DNA of 64,000 nt from Pseudomonadota bacterium (GTDB lineage: Bacteria; Desulfobacterota; Binatia; Binatales; Binataceae): assembly GCA_021325025.1 (NCBI GenBank), contig JAJPHZ010000027.1, forward strand, positions 1 to 64,000, written 5' to 3'. The notes below the pieces were generated by a model. That model had not been told where the DNA came from. It made no database searches and saw only the letters and a program-made list of their open reading frames with translations. A program made the position numbers and the translations under genes. Shown one piece after another: positions 22,431 to 32,549 of this stretch. Within the stretch, counting starts at the first letter, position 1. Each line of letters begins with the position of its first letter.

Positions 22431-24701
22431 CTACTTGGTATCCAGCTCGAACAGCAGATGGCGCGCGCCGTCGGCCGGTTCCGCTTTGCGCCGGAAGGGG
22501 TTGAAGCGACCCATCAGGCTGCCATTGCCGCTGGCCGCGTGCAAGCGCTCCAGGTACAGTTGCAGCGGGCGATCTTCGGGCTTTTGCCGCGCCAATTCCT
22601 CCAGGCTGATCAACGCCTGGTGGGTCGAACCCTTTTCCAAAGCCGCCAGGGCGGCGGCGAATTGCTCATAAAAGGCGGCTTCGACCGGCCCCCCGCGCTT
22701 ACCCGCGACCTCGTCGATGCGCACCGCCTGGGCCTTGCCCTTGACCCGCACCGAACCGATATTGCGCACGACAAATCCGTCGGCGGCTTCTTCGGTGGTT
22801 TGTCGATTGACCAACAGATGCACCTTGAAGTGGCGCGTCAGCCCCTCGATACGCGACGCCAAATTGACGGTGTCGCCGATCGCCGAATAATCGAAGCGCT
22901 GGTTGCCGCCGAAATTGCCCACAATCGCGTCGCCGGTGGCGATGCCGATACCGATGTCGATGTCCACGAAGCGCGGGTCGACGCGGCGCAACCGCTCCAG
23001 TTCGGCCAACATCTCAAGCGCGCACTCGACTGCCGAGCGGGCCGGGTTGGGCGTATCGCCCGGCGCGCCCCAAAACGCCATGATCCCGTCGCCCATCAGC
23101 TTGTCCACCACCCCGCCGCTGCGCAGGATAAGGTCGATCATCGCCGTCATGTAGCTGTTGAGCAGCGCCACCAGCTCCTCGGGCGCAGTGCGCTCGCTGC
23201 GCGAGGTAAAGCCGACGATGTCGGAGAACAGGATACTCATGTGGCGGCGCTCGCCGCCTAGCTTGAGCTTTTCGGGGTCCTGAACCAGCCGCTCGATGAC
23301 GTCGGGATGCAGATAGTGTTCAAAGGCGTGGCGATAGTACTGCTTCAGCCGCCCTTCGGTCAGGTATTTGTAACCGGCCAGGATGGCGTAATCCACCACC
23401 ACCATGACCACCGGGAACAGCACCCCCAGCAGCAGGCCGTCGGCGACCAGCAGATACTGCGCAATCGCCAGGTAGCCGAGGATCATCACCGCCGCCGCCA
23501 CTGCCGACCATGACGCGGACAGGTAGGCGACGGCCGCGCTAATCGCAATTCCCATCACTACCGCTGCCACCCGTTCCAGGCCTGCCGTAATTTCCGAGCG
23601 TTGGATAAAATCGCCGGTCAGGATGTTGTCGATCGCGTTGGCGTGGATTTCCACACCGGGAAAGTCCGCGCCCATCGGCGTCGACCATCGGTCCCCTACA
23701 CCCAGCGCCGACGCTCCCACCAGCACGATCTTGTTAGCCAGTGCGCTGGCGGGCACCCGATGCGCGATCACGTCGCTGACGGAATAGTACGGGAAGGTGT
23801 GAGCAGGACCGCGGAAGTTCACCAGCATCCGCCCCTGTTCATCGACCGGCAGCGCGACCGGGCCGATTTTGGCCTGCGCCACGCCGTAATCGGCCAGAGT
23901 CAGCGAGGTGAGCGCGCCGCCCGCGGCGGCGCTGGTCACGGCCAGGATCAGCGGCTCACAGTAGCGGTTGCCGAACCGTATCACCATCATCTCGGAGCGA
24001 AACACCGCGTCGGCGTCGGTAGGCGTGTCGAAATATCCCGTGCCGTGCGCCGCCCGGTTGATGTCGGGCAGATTGGGCAGGTAGGCGACCGCTTGCGGGA
24101 TCGGCGGCGGGCCGGAAATTCCGGGCAGGCTTCGCACCAGGCTGTAAGCCAACGGGGCCGGCGGCATTGTTTGGGAAACAAAACCGGGGCTGATTGTGAC
24201 CTTCTCGCCCTCAGCTTTTACTTGAAGCGGGTAACCAAGGTAGGTCATGCCCTGGGCTTTGATGGCGTTGGCAAAGGCCTGGTCGTTGCCGATTCCGGCC
24301 GCCGCCGTCAGTTTATCAGCCGGCAAACCGGCCTTCTCGAGGCTGTCGACAATTTGCTGGCGCACCAGGTCGTTGTCGTCGCGCTCGCTGAAGACCATAT
24401 CGTAGCCCACCACCGCGACCTTGTACGACATGAGCGCCTCTTCCAGGCGGGCCAACACCGTGCGCGGCCAGGGCCATCGTCCCAGCTCGCTGATACTCTT
24501 GTCGTCGATGGCGACGATTGCCACTTCACCGTGGGGTTTGCGCGTTCCCCGCGCATACATCCGCAGGTCGAAGGTCTTGAGTTCGGCAAGCCTCAGCAGC
24601 GAGGGGTAATGGGCGTTAACCAGGAAGAGCGCGACCACCATCCCCACCCCGATGCCCAAGGTGCGCAACGCCCCGTGGTTCTTTTTGCCAGCTCGGGCCA
24701 T
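22431..24701 (-). CDS. CHASE2-domain adenylate/guanylate cyclase
   Basis: A 756-residue membrane sensor cyclase. After an N-terminal transmembrane segment, residues 40-330 form an extracytoplasmic CHASE2 domain (AELKTFDLRMY, VAIVAIDDKSISELGRWPWPR, KIVLVGASALGVGDRWSTPMG). Three transmembrane helices follow (about 345-430), then a class III cyclase domain with metal-binding aspartates in FSDIVGFTSRS (near 490) and GDGIMAFWG, plus SAIGDTVNLASRIEG. It makes cAMP or cGMP in response to an envelope signal. It is the last of four minus-strand genes beginning with a FecR protein. Confidence 0.95.
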   Translation of the reverse strand: MARAGKKNHGALRTLGIGVGMVVALFLVNAHYPSLLRLAELKTFDLRMYARGTRKPHGEVAIVAIDDKSISELGRWPWPRTVLARLEEALMSYKVAVVGYDMVFSERDDNDLVRQQIVDSLEKAGLPADKLTAAAGIGNDQAFANAIKAQGMTYLGYPLQVKAEGEKVTISPGFVSQTMPPAPLAYSLVRSLPGISGPPPIPQAVAYLPNLPDINRAAHGTGYFDTPTDADAVFRSEMMVIRFGNRYCEPLILAVTSAAAGGALTSLTLADYGVAQAKIGPVALPVDEQGRMLVNFRGPAHTFPYYSVSDVIAHRVPASALANKIVLVGASALGVGDRWSTPMGADFPGVEIHANAIDNILTGDFIQRSEITAGLERVAAVVMGIAISAAVAYLSASWSAVAAAVMILGYLAIAQYLLVADGLLLGVLFPVVMVVVDYAILAGYKYLTEGRLKQYYRHAFEHYLHPDVIERLVQDPEKLKLGGERRHMSILFSDIVGFTSRSERTAPEELVALLNSYMTAMIDLILRSGGVVDKLMGDGIMAFWGAPGDTPNPARSAVECALEMLAELERLRRVDPRFVDIDIGIGIATGDAIVGNFGGNQRFDYSAIGDTVNLASRIEGLTRHFKVHLLVNRQTTEEAADGFVVRNIGSVRVKGKAQAVRIDEVAGKRGGPVEAAFYEQFAAALAALEKGSTHQALISLEELARQKPEDRPLQLYLERLHAASGNGSLMGRFNPFRRKAEPADGARHLLFELDTK

Positions 24702-24781
24702 CGTGCTACCCGGGGCGATTGTAGCGGTTTTGATTAAATTTCGCTAATCCGAACAGTTTTCCCCGGACCTGTGGACAATCG

Positions 24782-24819
24782 CATGGACCGCGCCGCTGCA
24801 GGCGACGGCGCAGTCCATG
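24782..24819. other. Long imperfect hairpin
   Basis: Fourteen-base arms at 24782-24795 and 24806-24819 pair with one mismatch around a 10-base loop. It lies between the lipoprotein gene and the cyclase gene. No U tract follows on either strand, so it may be an mRNA processing, attenuation or protein-binding site rather than an intrinsic terminator. Confidence 0.5.
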
Positions 24820-24843
24820 GCAAACGGAACGACCGGGTCAAGC

Positions 24844-26298
24844 CTACTCTGCAACGAAGGTCACAAGCTTAAGCGCGACCAGGTCAAGGGTCGGATCCAC
24901 GGTATGCGCTGCGCTGCGCTTGGCCTTCAACAGACCGTCCAGATCGACCACGGCCAGGAAGCTGAACGCTTCGTTGCCCAGCACCCCGTAAGCTTTGCCG
25001 CTGTTGGGGCTGACGTAGGCCGTGGTGGGATGCGGATCGAAACCCTGGGCCCACGGCGTACCGGATGGGTCATTCGGCATGGTGAAAGCCACCCAGTCGA
25101 CCACCGACGGGATTCCGCTGCCGGAGGTGGATGGCAGTTGGATCACACCTTCCACGCTGCCGCCGAACTCGCCGGTTACCAATGCCAAATGTGTTCCCGG
25201 AGCAACGGCAATGCCCGATGTCCCGGCCGCCAGCGAGCCAAACTCGGGGAAATCCTGGAATTGGCTTGGTGCATGCCAGGTTCCCGGCGCTCCGCTGACA
25301 AAAGTCGCTTGGGTCAGGTCAGCGATAAACAGAAGGCCGGTAAATTCATCAGTGGATAGCGCAATGCCAGTCGTGCAGTCTTCCCCCGCCGAGTCCAGAT
25401 CAGGCCCAGGATTGGGCGCGCCCACCGGGGTCGGCGTCGGAATCGGTACGATTTGATTGGTGAACACCTGGGTGCTGGCCCCAATCTTTGCCAGTTCGTA
25501 ATTCCCGCGTTCGTTGGGTGAGAGGATCAGGTGCCGGATCGGGTCCACCGCGATGTCTTCTGACACACCGGTGGGCGAATCAACCGGCAGGTCGAAGGTG
25601 TTGGTGGAAAGATGCAGTGCCTGATAGGCGGAGGAGGACGGCGAATCGCTCTTGGCGATCGCCAACTGGGCGGTATTGGTGCTCGAATCGACCACTACGC
25701 CGCAGGTCGTGCACGATCCGCCAGTGAAGCTGACCGTGCCTGTTCCCGCACTGGTCAGGGTATTCTTAAGCGTGGTGCCGTTAAGGATGTAAACGTCGGT
25801 ACCGTTGGCGACGCAGACCGTGTCGCCGGTGGTAGAATTGGACGAGCAGGAGTTAACCGTATCCCGCGTCGGGACCACCACTGCCGGGCCGCCGGTGCCG
25901 ACTCCGGCGCTGGTTTCCAACGGCACAACAGCGACGCCGCCACTGCCCACCGGGCCTCCCCAATCGCCTTGCGGAGCGTATGCGGTTGCGTTGGTGCCCT
26001 GGACGAGCACGCCGATCGAGCTGGACGGAAGACAAGCCTCTGGCGCCAGGGTGGGTGTTGCAGTTGGGGTAGCAGTTGCGGTCGCGGTTCCAGTCCCTGT
26101 TGGCGTCGGGGTCGAGGTCGGAATCGGTGTCGGGGTGGGGCTGGGGAGCGGCGTTCTGGTCGGCGCTGGGGTGGTGGTCGCGGTCGTGGTGGGGATGACG
26201 CGGGGACAACTGCCACACGGGTCGCAACCGGCAAGACCGACCAGAATGCAGATGCCGAGCAAGGTCGGCCCTGCCAGCGCAATCAAGGCTGACTTCAT
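24844..26298 (-). CDS. Lipoprotein with Pro/Thr-rich stalk and propeller-like domain
   Basis: A 484-residue predicted lipoprotein: a hydrophobic N-terminus ends in the lipobox LAGC, followed by CDPCGSCP and then about 55 residues of TP/TA repeats (roughly residues 35-90) that form an extended stalk. The rest has repeated short beta-strand segments with aspartates and glycines, like a surface-exposed propeller with WD40/NHL-like content (VDPIRHLILSPNERG, GLLFIADL, KAYGVLGNEAFSFLAVVDLDG). AGGAG precedes the ATG. It sits between the outer-membrane protein and CHASE2 cyclase genes and may be a surface or periplasmic sensor part. No named family recognised. Confidence 0.75.
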   Translation of the reverse strand: MKSALIALAGPTLLGICILVGLAGCDPCGSCPRVIPTTTATTTPAPTRTPLPSPTPTPIPTSTPTPTGTGTATATATPTATPTLAPEACLPSSSIGVLVQGTNATAYAPQGDWGGPVGSGGVAVVPLETSAGVGTGGPAVVVPTRDTVNSCSSNSTTGDTVCVANGTDVYILNGTTLKNTLTSAGTGTVSFTGGSCTTCGVVVDSSTNTAQLAIAKSDSPSSSAYQALHLSTNTFDLPVDSPTGVSEDIAVDPIRHLILSPNERGNYELAKIGASTQVFTNQIVPIPTPTPVGAPNPGPDLDSAGEDCTTGIALSTDEFTGLLFIADLTQATFVSGAPGTWHAPSQFQDFPEFGSLAAGTSGIAVAPGTHLALVTGEFGGSVEGVIQLPSTSGSGIPSVVDWVAFTMPNDPSGTPWAQGFDPHPTTAYVSPNSGKAYGVLGNEAFSFLAVVDLDGLLKAKRSAAHTVDPTLDLVALKLVTFVAE

Positions 26299-26392
26299 CT
26301 ACGAACTCCTAAAAAATACAATGTTTATCTAAAGTTTGCGCACGAGGCGCTGGCACCTCGGCTTTTCTCAAGCTTCCGCCCGCCTGCCGGAC

Positions 26393-27199
26393 TCACTCGG
26401 TCCAGCTGAACTGCTTGTAAAGGGTGAGCTGACCGTATCCGTTGGGCGTGCCGTAGCCGGCCTGCACATCGGCCCCGATCTGCCAGGGACGGTAGTAGAT
26501 GCCGAGATCGGGACCGCCCTGGCCCGCGACACCCGACACAAACCCGCCGCCGTAGATCACTCCGCCCCCACCCGCCATCAGCATGTAGTCTTCGGTCGAC
26601 AGCAGCACGATGCGCAGGTCGATCGAATTGGAACTGATGTTGTTTTGCCAGCTATAGACCGAACTGACGAGAAAATTCACCGGATGCTGACTATGGACCA
26701 GCCACCAGCTGGAGAGGTCGCCCTCGATGTTGGCGTTGTGACTGTCGCCGCCGTCGTCGCCGCCCAACACGTACACATGGTCAGTGGGGGTGACTGCGAA
26801 ATCGATTCCGCCCTGAAAGCGGCCGAAATTGTAGCGTGAGCTGCCCGAAGCCGTGCCGGGGCTGGGCAGCAATGGATTGGCGAATCCATGGCCCATGTAC
26901 AACTGATAGCCGGTCGCGCGCGCGACGATGCCGACATAGCGGGTCAGGCTCTGTTCGGCCTGCACCCCTTCCTGGGTGACCCCGTACTGGTCACTGCCGA
27001 AGCCGCCGCCGAACAGGGTCAGACTGAAGCGCCCCGGCGTCGCGATTTCGAAAAAGTTCGGATAAAGATTGGAAGCGCTAAGCGGCGTCATTCCGGTCAT
27101 CTGTGCGTGAGCTGCCGATCCCAACAGCCCCGCCGTTACCGCCACCAACAGCCCGAAGAGGCCAGCGCCCCGTCGCTTCGCCGAAATAAAACCGGCCAT
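26393..27199 (-). CDS. Putative outer-membrane beta-barrel protein
   Basis: A 268-residue protein with a Sec signal peptide ending in AAHA near residue 32. The mature region alternates hydrophobic and polar residues with many aromatic and glycine residues, and ends in LTLYKQFSW, close to the aromatic C-terminal strand that outer-membrane barrels use for BAM recognition, though two residues (TE) follow. It starts 31 bases after the FecR-like gene stop on the same strand. Ligand or pore function unknown. Confidence 0.72.
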   Translation of the reverse strand: MAGFISAKRRGAGLFGLLVAVTAGLLGSAAHAQMTGMTPLSASNLYPNFFEIATPGRFSLTLFGGGFGSDQYGVTQEGVQAEQSLTRYVGIVARATGYQLYMGHGFANPLLPSPGTASGSSRYNFGRFQGGIDFAVTPTDHVYVLGGDDGGDSHNANIEGDLSSWWLVHSQHPVNFLVSSVYSWQNNISSNSIDLRIVLLSTEDYMLMAGGGGVIYGGGFVSGVAGQGGPDLGIYYRPWQIGADVQAGYGTPNGYGQLTLYKQFSWTE

Positions 27200-27230
27200 A
27201 CTCCGCTCCTCTCAAAACGCCAAGGAACTC

Positions 27231-27968
27231 TTAACAGCCCGGCGGGGGACAGACTGGACAGGCTGGTGGCGGCGCGCCGCCCACTCCCGGACCAGAACCC
27301 GGAAAGCCGCCCGCCGCGGTGCCGGTGCCGCCGGGGCCTGCAATTCCAATCGGGCCAGGTGGCAGCGGCGGCCGATTCCCGCAAACCACCGTTTCATAGC
27401 CGGCGTCAACGGTGATTCCGACACCGGGCGTGGCGCTATTGGCCACCTCGACGGCGCCTTGGCCCACCGACACGCCGGTAGAAGGTTCGTCGCCGCATAC
27501 CGGAGAATAGGTTGCGTAGCCGACACGGAATTTCGTGCCGCGCACGCCGGCTATCGCGTTGGGCGTCTTGACCTCGAAGCTGGGTGCGGTGCCGCGCAGG
27601 GCCTTGGTTACCAGGGACTCCAGATGGCCACCCAGCAGGCTTACCTTGGTGGTCTGCGCTCCACCCCCGCCCAGCACCTGCTCATCGATTGTCAGCGTGC
27701 TCTGTTCAGCCAGATCCAGCCGGCTGTTGTCGTTAAGCGTAATGGTCAGATGAGCGCCCGCGTCGGTGCTGAACTTGTCCTTCAACTCAACCGCCATCCC
27801 GCTGCTCACAGGCTGGGTGCTGCCGCCACGTTCCACGTGCGCCGACCCGGATAACTCCGAAACCGTTCCGACCGTGTTCTGTGCCCACACCGCCGCCGTG
27901 CACGCAAGGCTCAACACAAGCGCCTGGACCACGATCCAGATGGCCGGACGCCGTTTTTGCTCTTTCAT
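27231..27968 (-). CDS. FecR domain protein with Gly/Pro-rich C-terminus
   Basis: A 245-residue exported protein. The signal peptide ends AVWAQ; the FecR domain occupies about residues 35-140 (VGTVSELSGSAHVERGG, LTITLNDNSRLDLAEQSTL, LLGGHLESLV, FEVKTPNAIAGVRGTKF). The last 45 residues are Gly/Pro-rich and end in a Cys-Pro motif cluster, perhaps a surface-exposed or disulfide-linked tail. Unlike iron-transport FecR it has no anti-sigma helix and no sigma-factor gene nearby. FecR-like proteins of this sort often neighbour CHASE2 cyclases, as here. The start could also be GTG 27983. Confidence 0.88.
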   Translation of the reverse strand: MKEQKRRPAIWIVVQALVLSLACTAAVWAQNTVGTVSELSGSAHVERGGSTQPVSSGMAVELKDKFSTDAGAHLTITLNDNSRLDLAEQSTLTIDEQVLGGGGAQTTKVSLLGGHLESLVTKALRGTAPSFEVKTPNAIAGVRGTKFRVGYATYSPVCGDEPSTGVSVGQGAVEVANSATPGVGITVDAGYETVVCGNRPPLPPGPIGIAGPGGTGTAAGGFPGSGPGVGGAPPPACPVCPPPGC

Positions 27969-28094
27969 CGATTTAAACCGCACACCTGCACCGAAGAGTT
28001 ACGATTCCCTTTGCGACAGCTTTTTTATCCGTTCCGGTAAACGAGAGTCAACCATATTGCACCCGGCGAGCCCAAAATTTTGCCACTTCAAAGC

Positions 28095-29071: not shown

Positions 29072-29149
29072 TGGCGGGGCCGATGGGATTTGAACCCACG
29101 ACTTCCGACGTGACAGGCCGGCGTTCTAACCGGGCTGAACTACGACCCC
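29072..29149 (-). tRNA. tRNA-Asp (anticodon GTC)
   Basis: Cloverleaf read on the minus strand: acceptor GGGGTCG pairs with CGGCCCC (one G-U), discriminator G, and an encoded CCA ending at 29072. The anticodon loop is CTGTCAC with GTC, the anticodon stem is CCGGC/GTCGG, and the T loop is TTCAAAT. G73 and anticodon GTC are aspartate identity elements. Confidence 0.97.
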
Positions 29150-29338: not shown

Positions 29339-30724
29339 CTATTTCATGATTTGATTGAGGCCGCTGGGTAGCGCGTAGATCGAAATATCGTGCAGTTCCT
29401 GGGGGGCCTTTGAAAGCAGCGCTGGCGGCGAGCCGGGCCAGGCCACGCTGGCGTGGCTGGCCTGAACGTCATAGATGACGCCCAATTCCCCGCCCGACGG
29501 CATCACAAAACTGCTCTTTCCGGTCAACTCCGGCGGCACCGCGGTGGTGGCGCCGCGCGGAATGAACTGCAATTTCCACAGCTTGCCGTTGCGGTCCCAG
29601 GTGTCGGCCTGATCGGCGGTAAAGCCGAGATTTTTGTCCAGGTACAACACCCGATGCGAGTAGCAGTAGCTGTCGCGAAGTGCGGCCGTTGGCACCAGGT
29701 CGATCACGTACACATCGCGCAACTCGGCTTTGGTTTGTTCCGGCTTGGGCCATCCGATCGCGTTGCCGGTCAGAGTGTAGTTGCCCAGGAACTTCACGCT
29801 GTTGCTGGCCGCCGCGATCCATGGCGAATGGAGCATGAAAAGCAGCCTCTTTTCGCCCAAGTAGCGCGGAATGAACCAGTTGGGGATGCCACTGAAGCCG
29901 CCGCGCTGATCGTCGTTGGTCCAGTCGGTGCCCTGCAAAGGCGCGCAGCGCGCCACGCTGGACAGCCGCAGCGAGCGCCGCAGCGAGGGCAGGAACACGT
30001 AAAGCTCCGGTACGCGCCGCGGATCGTCGGGATACAGCGCCATCGCGGTCGTGTACTTCGACTGCTCGGGCGACAGTACCTGGTTGTTGATCGACAGATA
30101 AAGGCCGTTGGCCTGGGGGTTGGTCATCGGCGCACCCGGATCGCTGACGTGGGAGAGCTTGAAGAAGATCTGCCGCGACTGGTTTTGGGCGATGCTGCCG
30201 TAGCGGTCGACTAGCGCAAGATTGTAGTATCCAGTGTATATCGATGGGATATACGTGTAGTAAAAGTTATAAAGCAACTGGCCCGCCATATCCGGTCCTG
30301 ACGGATGCGGAAACGGGATGCCGGCCGCATAGTTTTTGATTTCATACGCGCCGCTGGGCAGCTTCACCAGTTGCGCCTGGCCGGAATACTTTTCCGTATC
30401 GCTGATGTATCGGGTTGGAAGCTCGGTCGAAATTGAAGGTCCCACTTCGATATAGTGTTGCGGGTCCGAGCCCAGCTTCCAGAAGTATTTGCCGCTGACG
30501 AACGCCTGCATGCTGACGGTCATGAACTTGCCGTAGTGCTGCCAGTTGGCGGCGGTGATTCTGGTGCCGGGGGCGATGGTGTCGGTGGAGTCGGCGCCAT
30601 TAAGCCGCGCGATCTGGGCGTCGTCGTAGGTGCCGAGCTCCTGAGCCAGCGCGGGGGCGGTTATCAGCAGCGCGAGGGCTGCCGCCAAAACGCCCGGCAG
30701 TTTGCGGATTCTGTGGCGAACCAT
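29339..30724 (-). CDS. DUF1329 family exported protein (paralogue 1)
   Basis: A 461-residue periplasmic protein with a signal peptide (ALLITAPALA-Q). DUF1329 features: an N-terminal block with TDTIAPGTRITAANWQHYGKFM, KLPSGAYEIKNYAAGIPFPHP, then FLPSLRRSLRLSSVARCAPLQGTDWTNDDQRGGFSGIPNWF, and VYVIDLVP. The family is structurally LolA-like and co-occurs with DUF1302 outer-membrane barrels, so a periplasmic carrier of hydrophobic cargo is inferred. GGGAGG seven bases before the ATG supports the start. A near-identical neighbour gene of the same length lies upstream but is separated by a terminator. Confidence 0.92.
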   Translation of the reverse strand: MVRHRIRKLPGVLAAALALLITAPALAQELGTYDDAQIARLNGADSTDTIAPGTRITAANWQHYGKFMTVSMQAFVSGKYFWKLGSDPQHYIEVGPSISTELPTRYISDTEKYSGQAQLVKLPSGAYEIKNYAAGIPFPHPSGPDMAGQLLYNFYYTYIPSIYTGYYNLALVDRYGSIAQNQSRQIFFKLSHVSDPGAPMTNPQANGLYLSINNQVLSPEQSKYTTAMALYPDDPRRVPELYVFLPSLRRSLRLSSVARCAPLQGTDWTNDDQRGGFSGIPNWFIPRYLGEKRLLFMLHSPWIAAASNSVKFLGNYTLTGNAIGWPKPEQTKAELRDVYVIDLVPTAALRDSYCYSHRVLYLDKNLGFTADQADTWDRNGKLWKLQFIPRGATTAVPPELTGKSSFVMPSGGELGVIYDVQASHASVAWPGSPPALLSKAPQELHDISIYALPSGLNQIMK

Positions 30725-30804
30725 TGTGCAACCTCCCAGCTAAGAAAGATTCCGCGCTGAATACCTAACGCTTGTTAGATTGTCAAACGCAAAGTACGCG
30801 CGCC

Positions 30805-30835
30805 AAAAAAAGAGCCGGCCCGGGCGGGCCGGCTC
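30805..30835 (-). terminator. Rho-independent terminator between the two DUF1329 genes
   Basis: A 10-bp GC stem (30812-30821 with 30826-30835) followed on the minus strand by seven U residues (A run at 30805-30811). It ends the upstream DUF1329 transcript, so the two paralogues are probably expressed separately. Confidence 0.92.
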
Positions 30836-30891
30836 CGCAGGTGAATCGGGCAGTCGCCGGGCGGTGCAACTCGCCACCCGGCCTGAGATTT

Positions 30892-32277
30892 TCATTTCAT
30901 GATCTGGTTCAACCCGCTCGGCAGCGCATAGAGCTGAATGTTGTGATACTGCTCGGGCACCCTGGAGTTGAGGGTCGGCGGCGATGCTGGCCAGGCGATG
31001 CTGGCGTGTTCAGCCTGGACGTCGTAGATGACGGCGTTTTCTCCACCGGAGGGCTGAACGAAGCTCTTCTGGCCGTTGAGGTCGGCCGGGATGGCGACCG
31101 TCGGGCCGCGGAAGACGAACTGCATCTTCCACAGTTTCAGGTTGCGATCCCAGGTATCGACGTGATCGCCGGTGTAACCCAGTTCCTTGTCCAGATAGAG
31201 CACCCGATGAGAATAGCAATAGAATGACTTGACGTCGGGATTAGGTACCAGGTCCAGCACGTAGACATCGCGCAGTTCGAACTTCTGCCTTTGGGGTTTG
31301 GGAAATCCGCTGGAACGGCCGCCGTAAACCCAATTGGTCAGGTAGTGCTGGCTTTCGCTGGCGTTGGCGTTCCATTCGCCATGCACCACAAACAGCATCT
31401 TCTTCTCGCCAAGATAGTGTGGCACGAACCAGTTGGGGATACCGCTGAATCCGCCCCGCTGATCGTCATTGGTCCAGTCGGTGCCCTGCAGCGGCGAGCA
31501 TCGCGCGGTGCTGGACAATCGCAGCGAGCGGCGCAGCGAGGGCAGAAATACGTAAGTTTCCGGGACCCGGTTGGGGTCGTCCGGATAGATCGCCAGCGCG
31601 GTCAGATACTTGGACTGCTCGGGCGTTATCTGTTGATCGTAGATGGACAGATAGAGTCCATTGGCCTGCGGATTGGTAATCGGTTGGCCGGCATCGCTGA
31701 CATGCGAGAGTTTGAAAAACAACTGTTGACCGATGCTACCGGTGGTATTGAAGAAGCGGTCTACGAACGCCACCGGATATAATGACCAATACATGCTTGG
31801 TATGTAGGTGTAGTAGAGATCGAACAGCAGCTTGCCGCCGATGTCGGGGTCGGCCGGATTGGGGTTGGGAAAAGGAATTCCGGCCGTATAATTTTTGATG
31901 TTATAGCTGCCCGATGGTAATTTGACCAACTGGGCCTGCCCGGAGTATTTCTCGGTGTCGGCAAGGTATTTGGTGGGAAGCTGAGTAGGTTGTGTAGGCG
32001 CTACTTCGATGTAATACTCGGGACCGCTGCCCATCTTCCAGAAAAAGTTCCCGCTCAAAAACGCCTGCAGACTGATCGGCATGAACTTGCGGTACTGCTG
32101 CCAGTTGGCGGTGGTAATTTTGGTGCCGGGAGCGATGGTGTCGGACGAGTTGGCGTCGGCAAACTGATGGATCAGCGCTTCGTCGAAGGTGTTGAGGTCC
32201 TGTGCGGCGGCCGGGCGGGACATAACAGCCAACAGGGCCATCATCGTGACGATCAACAGCAAGGTTGCATGGCGCAT
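30892..32277 (-). CDS. DUF1329 family exported protein (paralogue 2)
   Basis: A 461-residue exported protein, same length and domain order as the next gene, with identical core segments such as FLPSLRRSLRLSS and GTDWTNDDQRGGFSGIPNWF. AGGAGG seven bases upstream of ATG 32277 selects this start over an upstream one at 32322; a signal peptide ending RPAAA-Q follows. Differences cluster in the N-terminal third and in loops, suggesting different cargo or partners after duplication. It diverges from the large AsmA/DUF748 gene. Confidence 0.92.
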   Translation of the reverse strand: MRHATLLLIVTMMALLAVMSRPAAAQDLNTFDEALIHQFADANSSDTIAPGTKITTANWQQYRKFMPISLQAFLSGNFFWKMGSGPEYYIEVAPTQPTQLPTKYLADTEKYSGQAQLVKLPSGSYNIKNYTAGIPFPNPNPADPDIGGKLLFDLYYTYIPSMYWSLYPVAFVDRFFNTTGSIGQQLFFKLSHVSDAGQPITNPQANGLYLSIYDQQITPEQSKYLTALAIYPDDPNRVPETYVFLPSLRRSLRLSSTARCSPLQGTDWTNDDQRGGFSGIPNWFVPHYLGEKKMLFVVHGEWNANASESQHYLTNWVYGGRSSGFPKPQRQKFELRDVYVLDLVPNPDVKSFYCYSHRVLYLDKELGYTGDHVDTWDRNLKLWKMQFVFRGPTVAIPADLNGQKSFVQPSGGENAVIYDVQAEHASIAWPASPPTLNSRVPEQYHNIQLYALPSGLNQIMK

Positions 32278-32549
32278 TGTTGATCCTCCTGAACGCACGT
32301 TTTCCGCTGCCTTATCGCACAACCGTGGCGGCTGTCAAACGCGTGTAACGAAGTGTAGGAAAAGACGGTGGAGGATAAGTCGACCGGCCGGCGCACGCCG
32401 CGCCCGGCGCCGCCGGATAGACCACGCCGGCACGGGTCTGTTATAGGCGAGCCGGGGCGAAATGCCCCGCTACAGGCCGGGGCCGCAGCCCCTGGCGGCA
32501 AGGATTTCCGTCATGGAGACCGCGGCGCGGCGCGCCCTGTAGCCGGCAA

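Follow-up and report, generated by a model that had tools for sequence, protein, structure and literature searches.

The window considered here, that is, the whole stretch of 64,000 nucleotides that was analysed, belongs to a genome of 5.36 Mb in 43 contigs, from a soil-dwelling member of Binataceae, an uncultured family of the candidate phylum Binatota. A cluster of four minus-strand genes sits between rplM-rpsI and argC, all of them on the same strand. In the direction of reading, the open reading frame listing gives a FecR-domain protein (27231-27983), a predicted outer-membrane barrel (26393-27199), a lipoprotein (24844-26298) and a CHASE2 receptor bearing a nucleotide cyclase (22431-24701), separated by gaps of 31 bp, 94 bp and 142 bp; the cluster begins 169 bp after rpsI and ends 76 bp before argC. 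A preliminary description of this DNA had reported four minus-strand genes with modest gaps, and all four are indeed present as open reading frames. Further away, a tRNA gene (29075-29149, minus strand, Rfam match) is found just upstream of rplM and, beyond rplM, two DUF1329 (LolA-like) genes lie in tandem (29339-32322).

Products of the four genes

The first gene encodes a protein with a signal peptide and a FecR domain (Pfam PF04773, E 5.7e-16) at residues 69-179, which correspond to positions 27447-27779 of the minus strand, as expected of the exported FecR-domain protein that had been announced. It ends in a Gly/Pro tail that terminates in CPVCPPPGC. No ECF sigma factor gene is found beside it, the flanking genes being ribosomal genes and those of the barrel, the lipoprotein, the cyclase and argC.

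A Pfam search returned nothing significant for the two middle genes, so that their description depends on structure models. The barrel gene encodes 268 residues with a signal peptide, and its sequence has no relative among solved structures and no homology that we could find to plasmid records. Its AlphaFold2 model, built from an alignment of 15 homologues, has a mean pLDDT of 76 and shows 12 strands spanning residues 57-267. The model is close to known 12-stranded barrels (Z 20.8 to the beta-domain of the autotransporter BrkA, Z 20.6 to KdgM), and the predicted fold is in line with the barrel-like outer-membrane protein first suggested. The third gene encodes a lipoprotein of 484 residues, with the lipobox LAGC-D. 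It carries a disordered Thr/Pro stalk at about residues 36-88 (residues 1-54 and 60-87 being of low confidence in the model), and its head, at residues 94-484, is predicted by AlphaFold2 from an alignment of 12 homologues to be a seven-bladed propeller, with a pLDDT of about 90 over most of its length. The stalk and propeller-like head of the preliminary description are thus recovered in the model. The head resembles the YVTN/YncE seven-bladed propellers (Z 28-29 to 1l0q and YncE); it falls in no Pfam family, so this likeness is one of fold only, and the lipoprotein sequence has no relative among solved structures.

The last gene encodes a CHASE2 domain (23577-24632, minus strand; PF05226, E 5.6e-60) together with a class III cyclase domain (about 22728-23243, minus strand; PF00211, E 1.2e-22), in agreement with its initial assignment as a CHASE2 nucleotide cyclase. 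When aligned to CyaB of Pseudomonas aeruginosa and Cya2 of Synechocystis, the cyclase has both metal Asp residues as well as the catalytic Asn and Arg, and its purine-selecting positions are Lys and Ser, the adenylate-type pair. The Cya2 chain 2w01, a known guanylate cyclase, has a Glu where the enzyme of the window has the Lys. In class III cyclases, Lys and Ser at these positions indicate ATP as the substrate, hence cAMP as the product. Since the adenylate-type pair is associated here with intact catalytic residues, the predicted output is cAMP; from the cAMP/cGMP output originally put forward we would keep the cyclic nucleotide and drop cGMP. The cyclic-nucleotide-binding family has ten matches in the genome, and therefore receptors are available.

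The receptor has other relatives. A CHASE2 paralogue, 67% identical to it, stops after the transmembrane part without any cyclase domain and is found in two congeners (L145:8301-9674, that is G000:C33:166303-167661, and G001:C10:52857-54224); it is possibly a decoy or a partner subunit. In the genome of the window, L144:7094-9265 (G000:C25) encodes CHASE2 fused with a phosphatase of the SpoIIE type, and close by is a FecR-domain gene in the opposite orientation. As this fusion also has a FecR gene near it, the link between FecR and CHASE2 does not depend on one particular output.

The conserved unit

Four protein searches over 57 relatives, together with the inspection of 40 regions, were used to follow the conservation of the cluster. 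The conserved unit is made of the FecR, barrel and CHASE2 cyclase genes, not of all four. This trio is found in nine genomes (G000, G003, G010, G016, G018, G023, G027, G032 and G034), seven of which have it at the rpsI-argC site, while G003 and G018, which belong to one genus, carry it intact elsewhere. Because it was relocated intact in these two, the trio does not merely travel with a housekeeping locus. In G010, where the trio is otherwise intact, the cyclase gene is broken into two reading frames close to its 3' end (L127:2883-5107, G010:C13), through either a frameshift or a sequencing error. The trio has decayed in G011, where one reads rpsI, a barrel remnant, the cyclase and argC, and G029 has the cyclase alone between rpsI and argC, with no adjoining FecR or barrel gene. 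The four-gene order, whose conservation had been proposed as a check, is therefore limited to the genus of the window, whereas the trio and the FecR-CHASE2 pair reach beyond close relatives.

The two partnerships of FecR can also be considered separately. Among 297 genomes sampled across the phylum, the barrel family is found in Binataceae only (its named carriers include Candidatus Binatus soli and a Candidatus Binataceae MAG), and the searches over the 57 relatives gave two marginal matches outside this family (E 1.6e-4 and 9e-4). Each of the 16 intact barrel genes is immediately preceded by a FecR gene of the same strand. In nine cases the cyclase comes next after the barrel-FecR pair, and in the other seven the pair has no adjacent CHASE2 gene; pairs without an adjacent cyclase include those of G004, G014, G021, G019, G023:C235 and G001:C93. 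On the CHASE2 side, a FecR domain lies within 4 kb in 23 of 38 matches, and FecR-cyclase pairs without a barrel occur in G007, G030, G033, G014, G026 and G021. Across the 57 genomes, 28 have both CHASE2 and FecR, 3 have CHASE2 only, 4 FecR only and 22 neither, an association whose Fisher p of 7e-9 is inflated by shared ancestry.

Known counterparts and the proposed receptor

In a pSymB record of Sinorhizobium meliloti, cyaK is directly preceded by a gene for a protein of 1190 residues that combines a FecR domain and TPRs with a long C-terminal region, and which we take, from its position and length, to be NsrA. The window cyclase is 30% identical to CyaK along most of its length, and the FecR domains of the window protein and of NsrA are related (hhalign probability 97.4, E 1.2e-11). 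NsrA is a beta-barrel outer-membrane receptor that is needed, with CyaK, for the cAMP response to a plant signal (PMC7529298; PMC10463352; PMC13001267). Both systems, the other including CyaD1/D2, thus bring together adjoining genes for a FecR domain, an outer-membrane barrel and a CHASE2 adenylate cyclase, the FecR and cyclase parts being homologous by sequence and the barrel being assigned here by its predicted fold. Unlike NsrA, which is one chain with TPRs, the window has its FecR domain and its 12-stranded barrel in separate genes, without any TPR, and no relation could be detected between the sequence of this barrel and the barrel region of NsrA (hhalign probability 0.6).

Similar associations exist elsewhere. 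A FecR gene lies directly upstream of a CHASE2 cyclase on four alphaproteobacterial plasmids, those of Shinella, Paracoccus, Ruegeria and Methylocystis. In Campylobacterota, CHASE2 cyclases are clustered with FecR-domain proteins that are themselves outer-membrane proteins (PMC9239204), an arrangement that recalls the window, although a phosphodiesterase and a TPR protein, which our four genes do not include, also belong to those clusters. The BiofilmReg operon of Burkholderia likewise has an exported FecR protein adjoining a CHASE2 receptor (PMC5192318), but there the FecR protein carries a peptidoglycan-binding LysM and the output is a histidine kinase with a response regulator, whereas the window has a cyclase output, a barrel and no LysM. 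Finally, as in FecA-FecR-FecI, the FecR domain is assumed to sense what state an outer-membrane protein is in; unlike in that system, the window FecR has no anti-sigma domain (only the FecR domain follows its signal peptide), the cluster has no sigma factor, and the barrel is 12-stranded, which sets it apart from a TonB-dependent receptor. The statement that the pathway linking FecR and CHASE2 is not defined is thus out of date, since the idea is already established by NsrA/CyaK of S. meliloti and by the clusters of Campylobacterota.

On these grounds, we propose, with a probability of about 0.6, that the FecR protein, the barrel and the CHASE2 cyclase make up a single receptor spanning the envelope, the NsrA-CyaK pathway in a split form. 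The barrel would sense something, presumably a ligand, at the outer membrane; the exported FecR protein would bind it on the periplasmic side and touch the periplasmic CHASE2 domain, which would change the activity of the cyclase in the cytoplasm; and the cAMP produced would act via CRP-type regulators. What supports the trio as one envelope signalling unit is its conserved order in nine genomes, its intact relocation, the strict pairing of FecR and barrel and the NsrA-CyaK precedent. The envelope signalling system suggested by the preliminary description therefore stands for these three genes; it does not for all four, as the lipoprotein is multicopy and absent from the locus outside its genus. 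Several observations count against a trio receptor, namely the barrel-FecR pairs with no adjacent CHASE2 gene, the several FecR-CHASE2 pairs with no barrel, the absence of sequence relation between the barrel and that of NsrA, and the cyclase of G029 that has neither partner beside it.

Alternative readings and significance

The alternative that survives best, which we nevertheless regard as unlikely, is that FecR-barrel and FecR-CHASE2 are separate partnerships, the barrel and its FecR forming a channel or an envelope anchor whose place before the cyclase is historical. The pairs that lack one or the other partner are what one would expect of it, and so is the fact that barrel-paired and barrel-less FecR proteins differ in their tails. 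Within Binataceae, the tails of the 15 FecR proteins examined that precede a barrel are soluble and of the Gly/Pro kind (the highest hydropathy over 19 residues being 1.09), whereas the six whose genes immediately precede a cyclase, with no barrel (loci L131, L133, L135, L150, L151 and L152), have a stretch of Gly/Ala that is hydrophobic (from 1.56 to 2.12); CHASE2-adjoining FecR proteins in other families of the class do not have this hydrophobic tail. In the FecR tree, the barrel-paired and barrel-less proteins do not form two clean clades, and the starred branches force at least two changes. The tail trait largely tracks relatedness there, and since near relatives are clustered, the correlation rests on few independent events. 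Separate partnerships fit less well with the intact trio being found at two different genomic places, and with the fact that a single chain of NsrA holds the FecR domain together with the barrel on which cAMP signalling depends.

A full four-part system, in which the propeller lipoprotein would be a surface sensor relaying through FecR and the barrel to the cyclase, appears improbable. The common strand and modest gaps are compatible with it, as are the partial orders seen in two congeners. In G001, FecR, barrel and lipoprotein adjoin rpsI, and the cyclase is found beside argC on a different contig; in G002, lipoprotein and cyclase stand together at the end of a contig. Both cases may be due to gaps in the assembly. 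The lipoprotein, however, is inside the cluster only in the genus of the window; no genome of another genus has it at the locus, trios included, and the four-gene operon was therefore rejected as the conserved unit. Its paralogues are scattered, and further copies lie in the genome of the window beside unrelated genes. Two same-family stalk-propeller lipoproteins of this genome, at L148:8325-9659 (G000:C25) and L149:6505-8088 (G000:C14), differ in the length of their stalks and have unrelated neighbours. Recent gene conversion among the copies was considered, as the protein matches a paralogue at 81% and the same-locus copy at 74%, but it was set aside, the DNA identities being similar (0.71 and 0.69).

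The 142-bp gap between the lipoprotein and the cyclase also speaks against a four-part system. It contains a hairpin of about 18 pairs without a U-tract (24779-24823, minus strand; -34 kcal/mol), as stable as which only 1 of 200 shuffles was found (z -3.0). Just upstream of the cyclase start, an element (24718-24748, minus strand) is alike in three congeners whose flanks differ further upstream, and it is possibly the cyclase's own promoter; a consensus promoter and terminator scan performed at chance level and did not flag it. The hairpin and this element both suggest, without proving it, that transcription of the cyclase can be separate from that of the lipoprotein. Moreover, in Escherichia coli an Asp after the lipid-bearing Cys leads to retention at the inner membrane, a rule that is not necessarily that of Binatota but that would hold the lipoprotein away from the surface. 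Most likely, the lipoprotein is an accessory gene that was inserted in the genus of the window and is not part of the core; it is probably accessory or unrelated to the signalling trio.

Passive synteny, in which the genes would be co-carried between rplM-rpsI and argC without any shared function, draws on the largely vertical inheritance implied by the seven trios at this one locus, and is very hard to maintain in view of the two relocated trios, of the pairing of FecR with every intact barrel gene at many loci, and of FecR and CHASE2 being paired in Alphaproteobacteria and Campylobacterota as well.

If we return to the receptor proposed for the trio, its concept is already known from NsrA-CyaK; what is new is that FecR and the barrel are separate proteins and that the barrel family is unrelated by sequence. 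A broader and more tentative reading is that FecR is a general adaptor for CHASE2 with an interchangeable input, which would be a fused barrel in NsrA, a separate barrel in the trio and the hydrophobic Gly/Ala tail of FecR itself in the barrel-less pairs, where this tail may replace the barrel as the membrane contact. If this were true, the step that stays the same would be the feeding of CHASE2, whether the output is a cyclase, a kinase or a phosphatase. The way in which the signal crosses from the outer membrane to the inner-membrane cyclase is the open step of the NsrA-CyaK pathway, and a FecR protein split from a small barrel, each of them individually expressible, together with natural barrel-less relatives, offers simpler parts with which FecR can be tested as the link.
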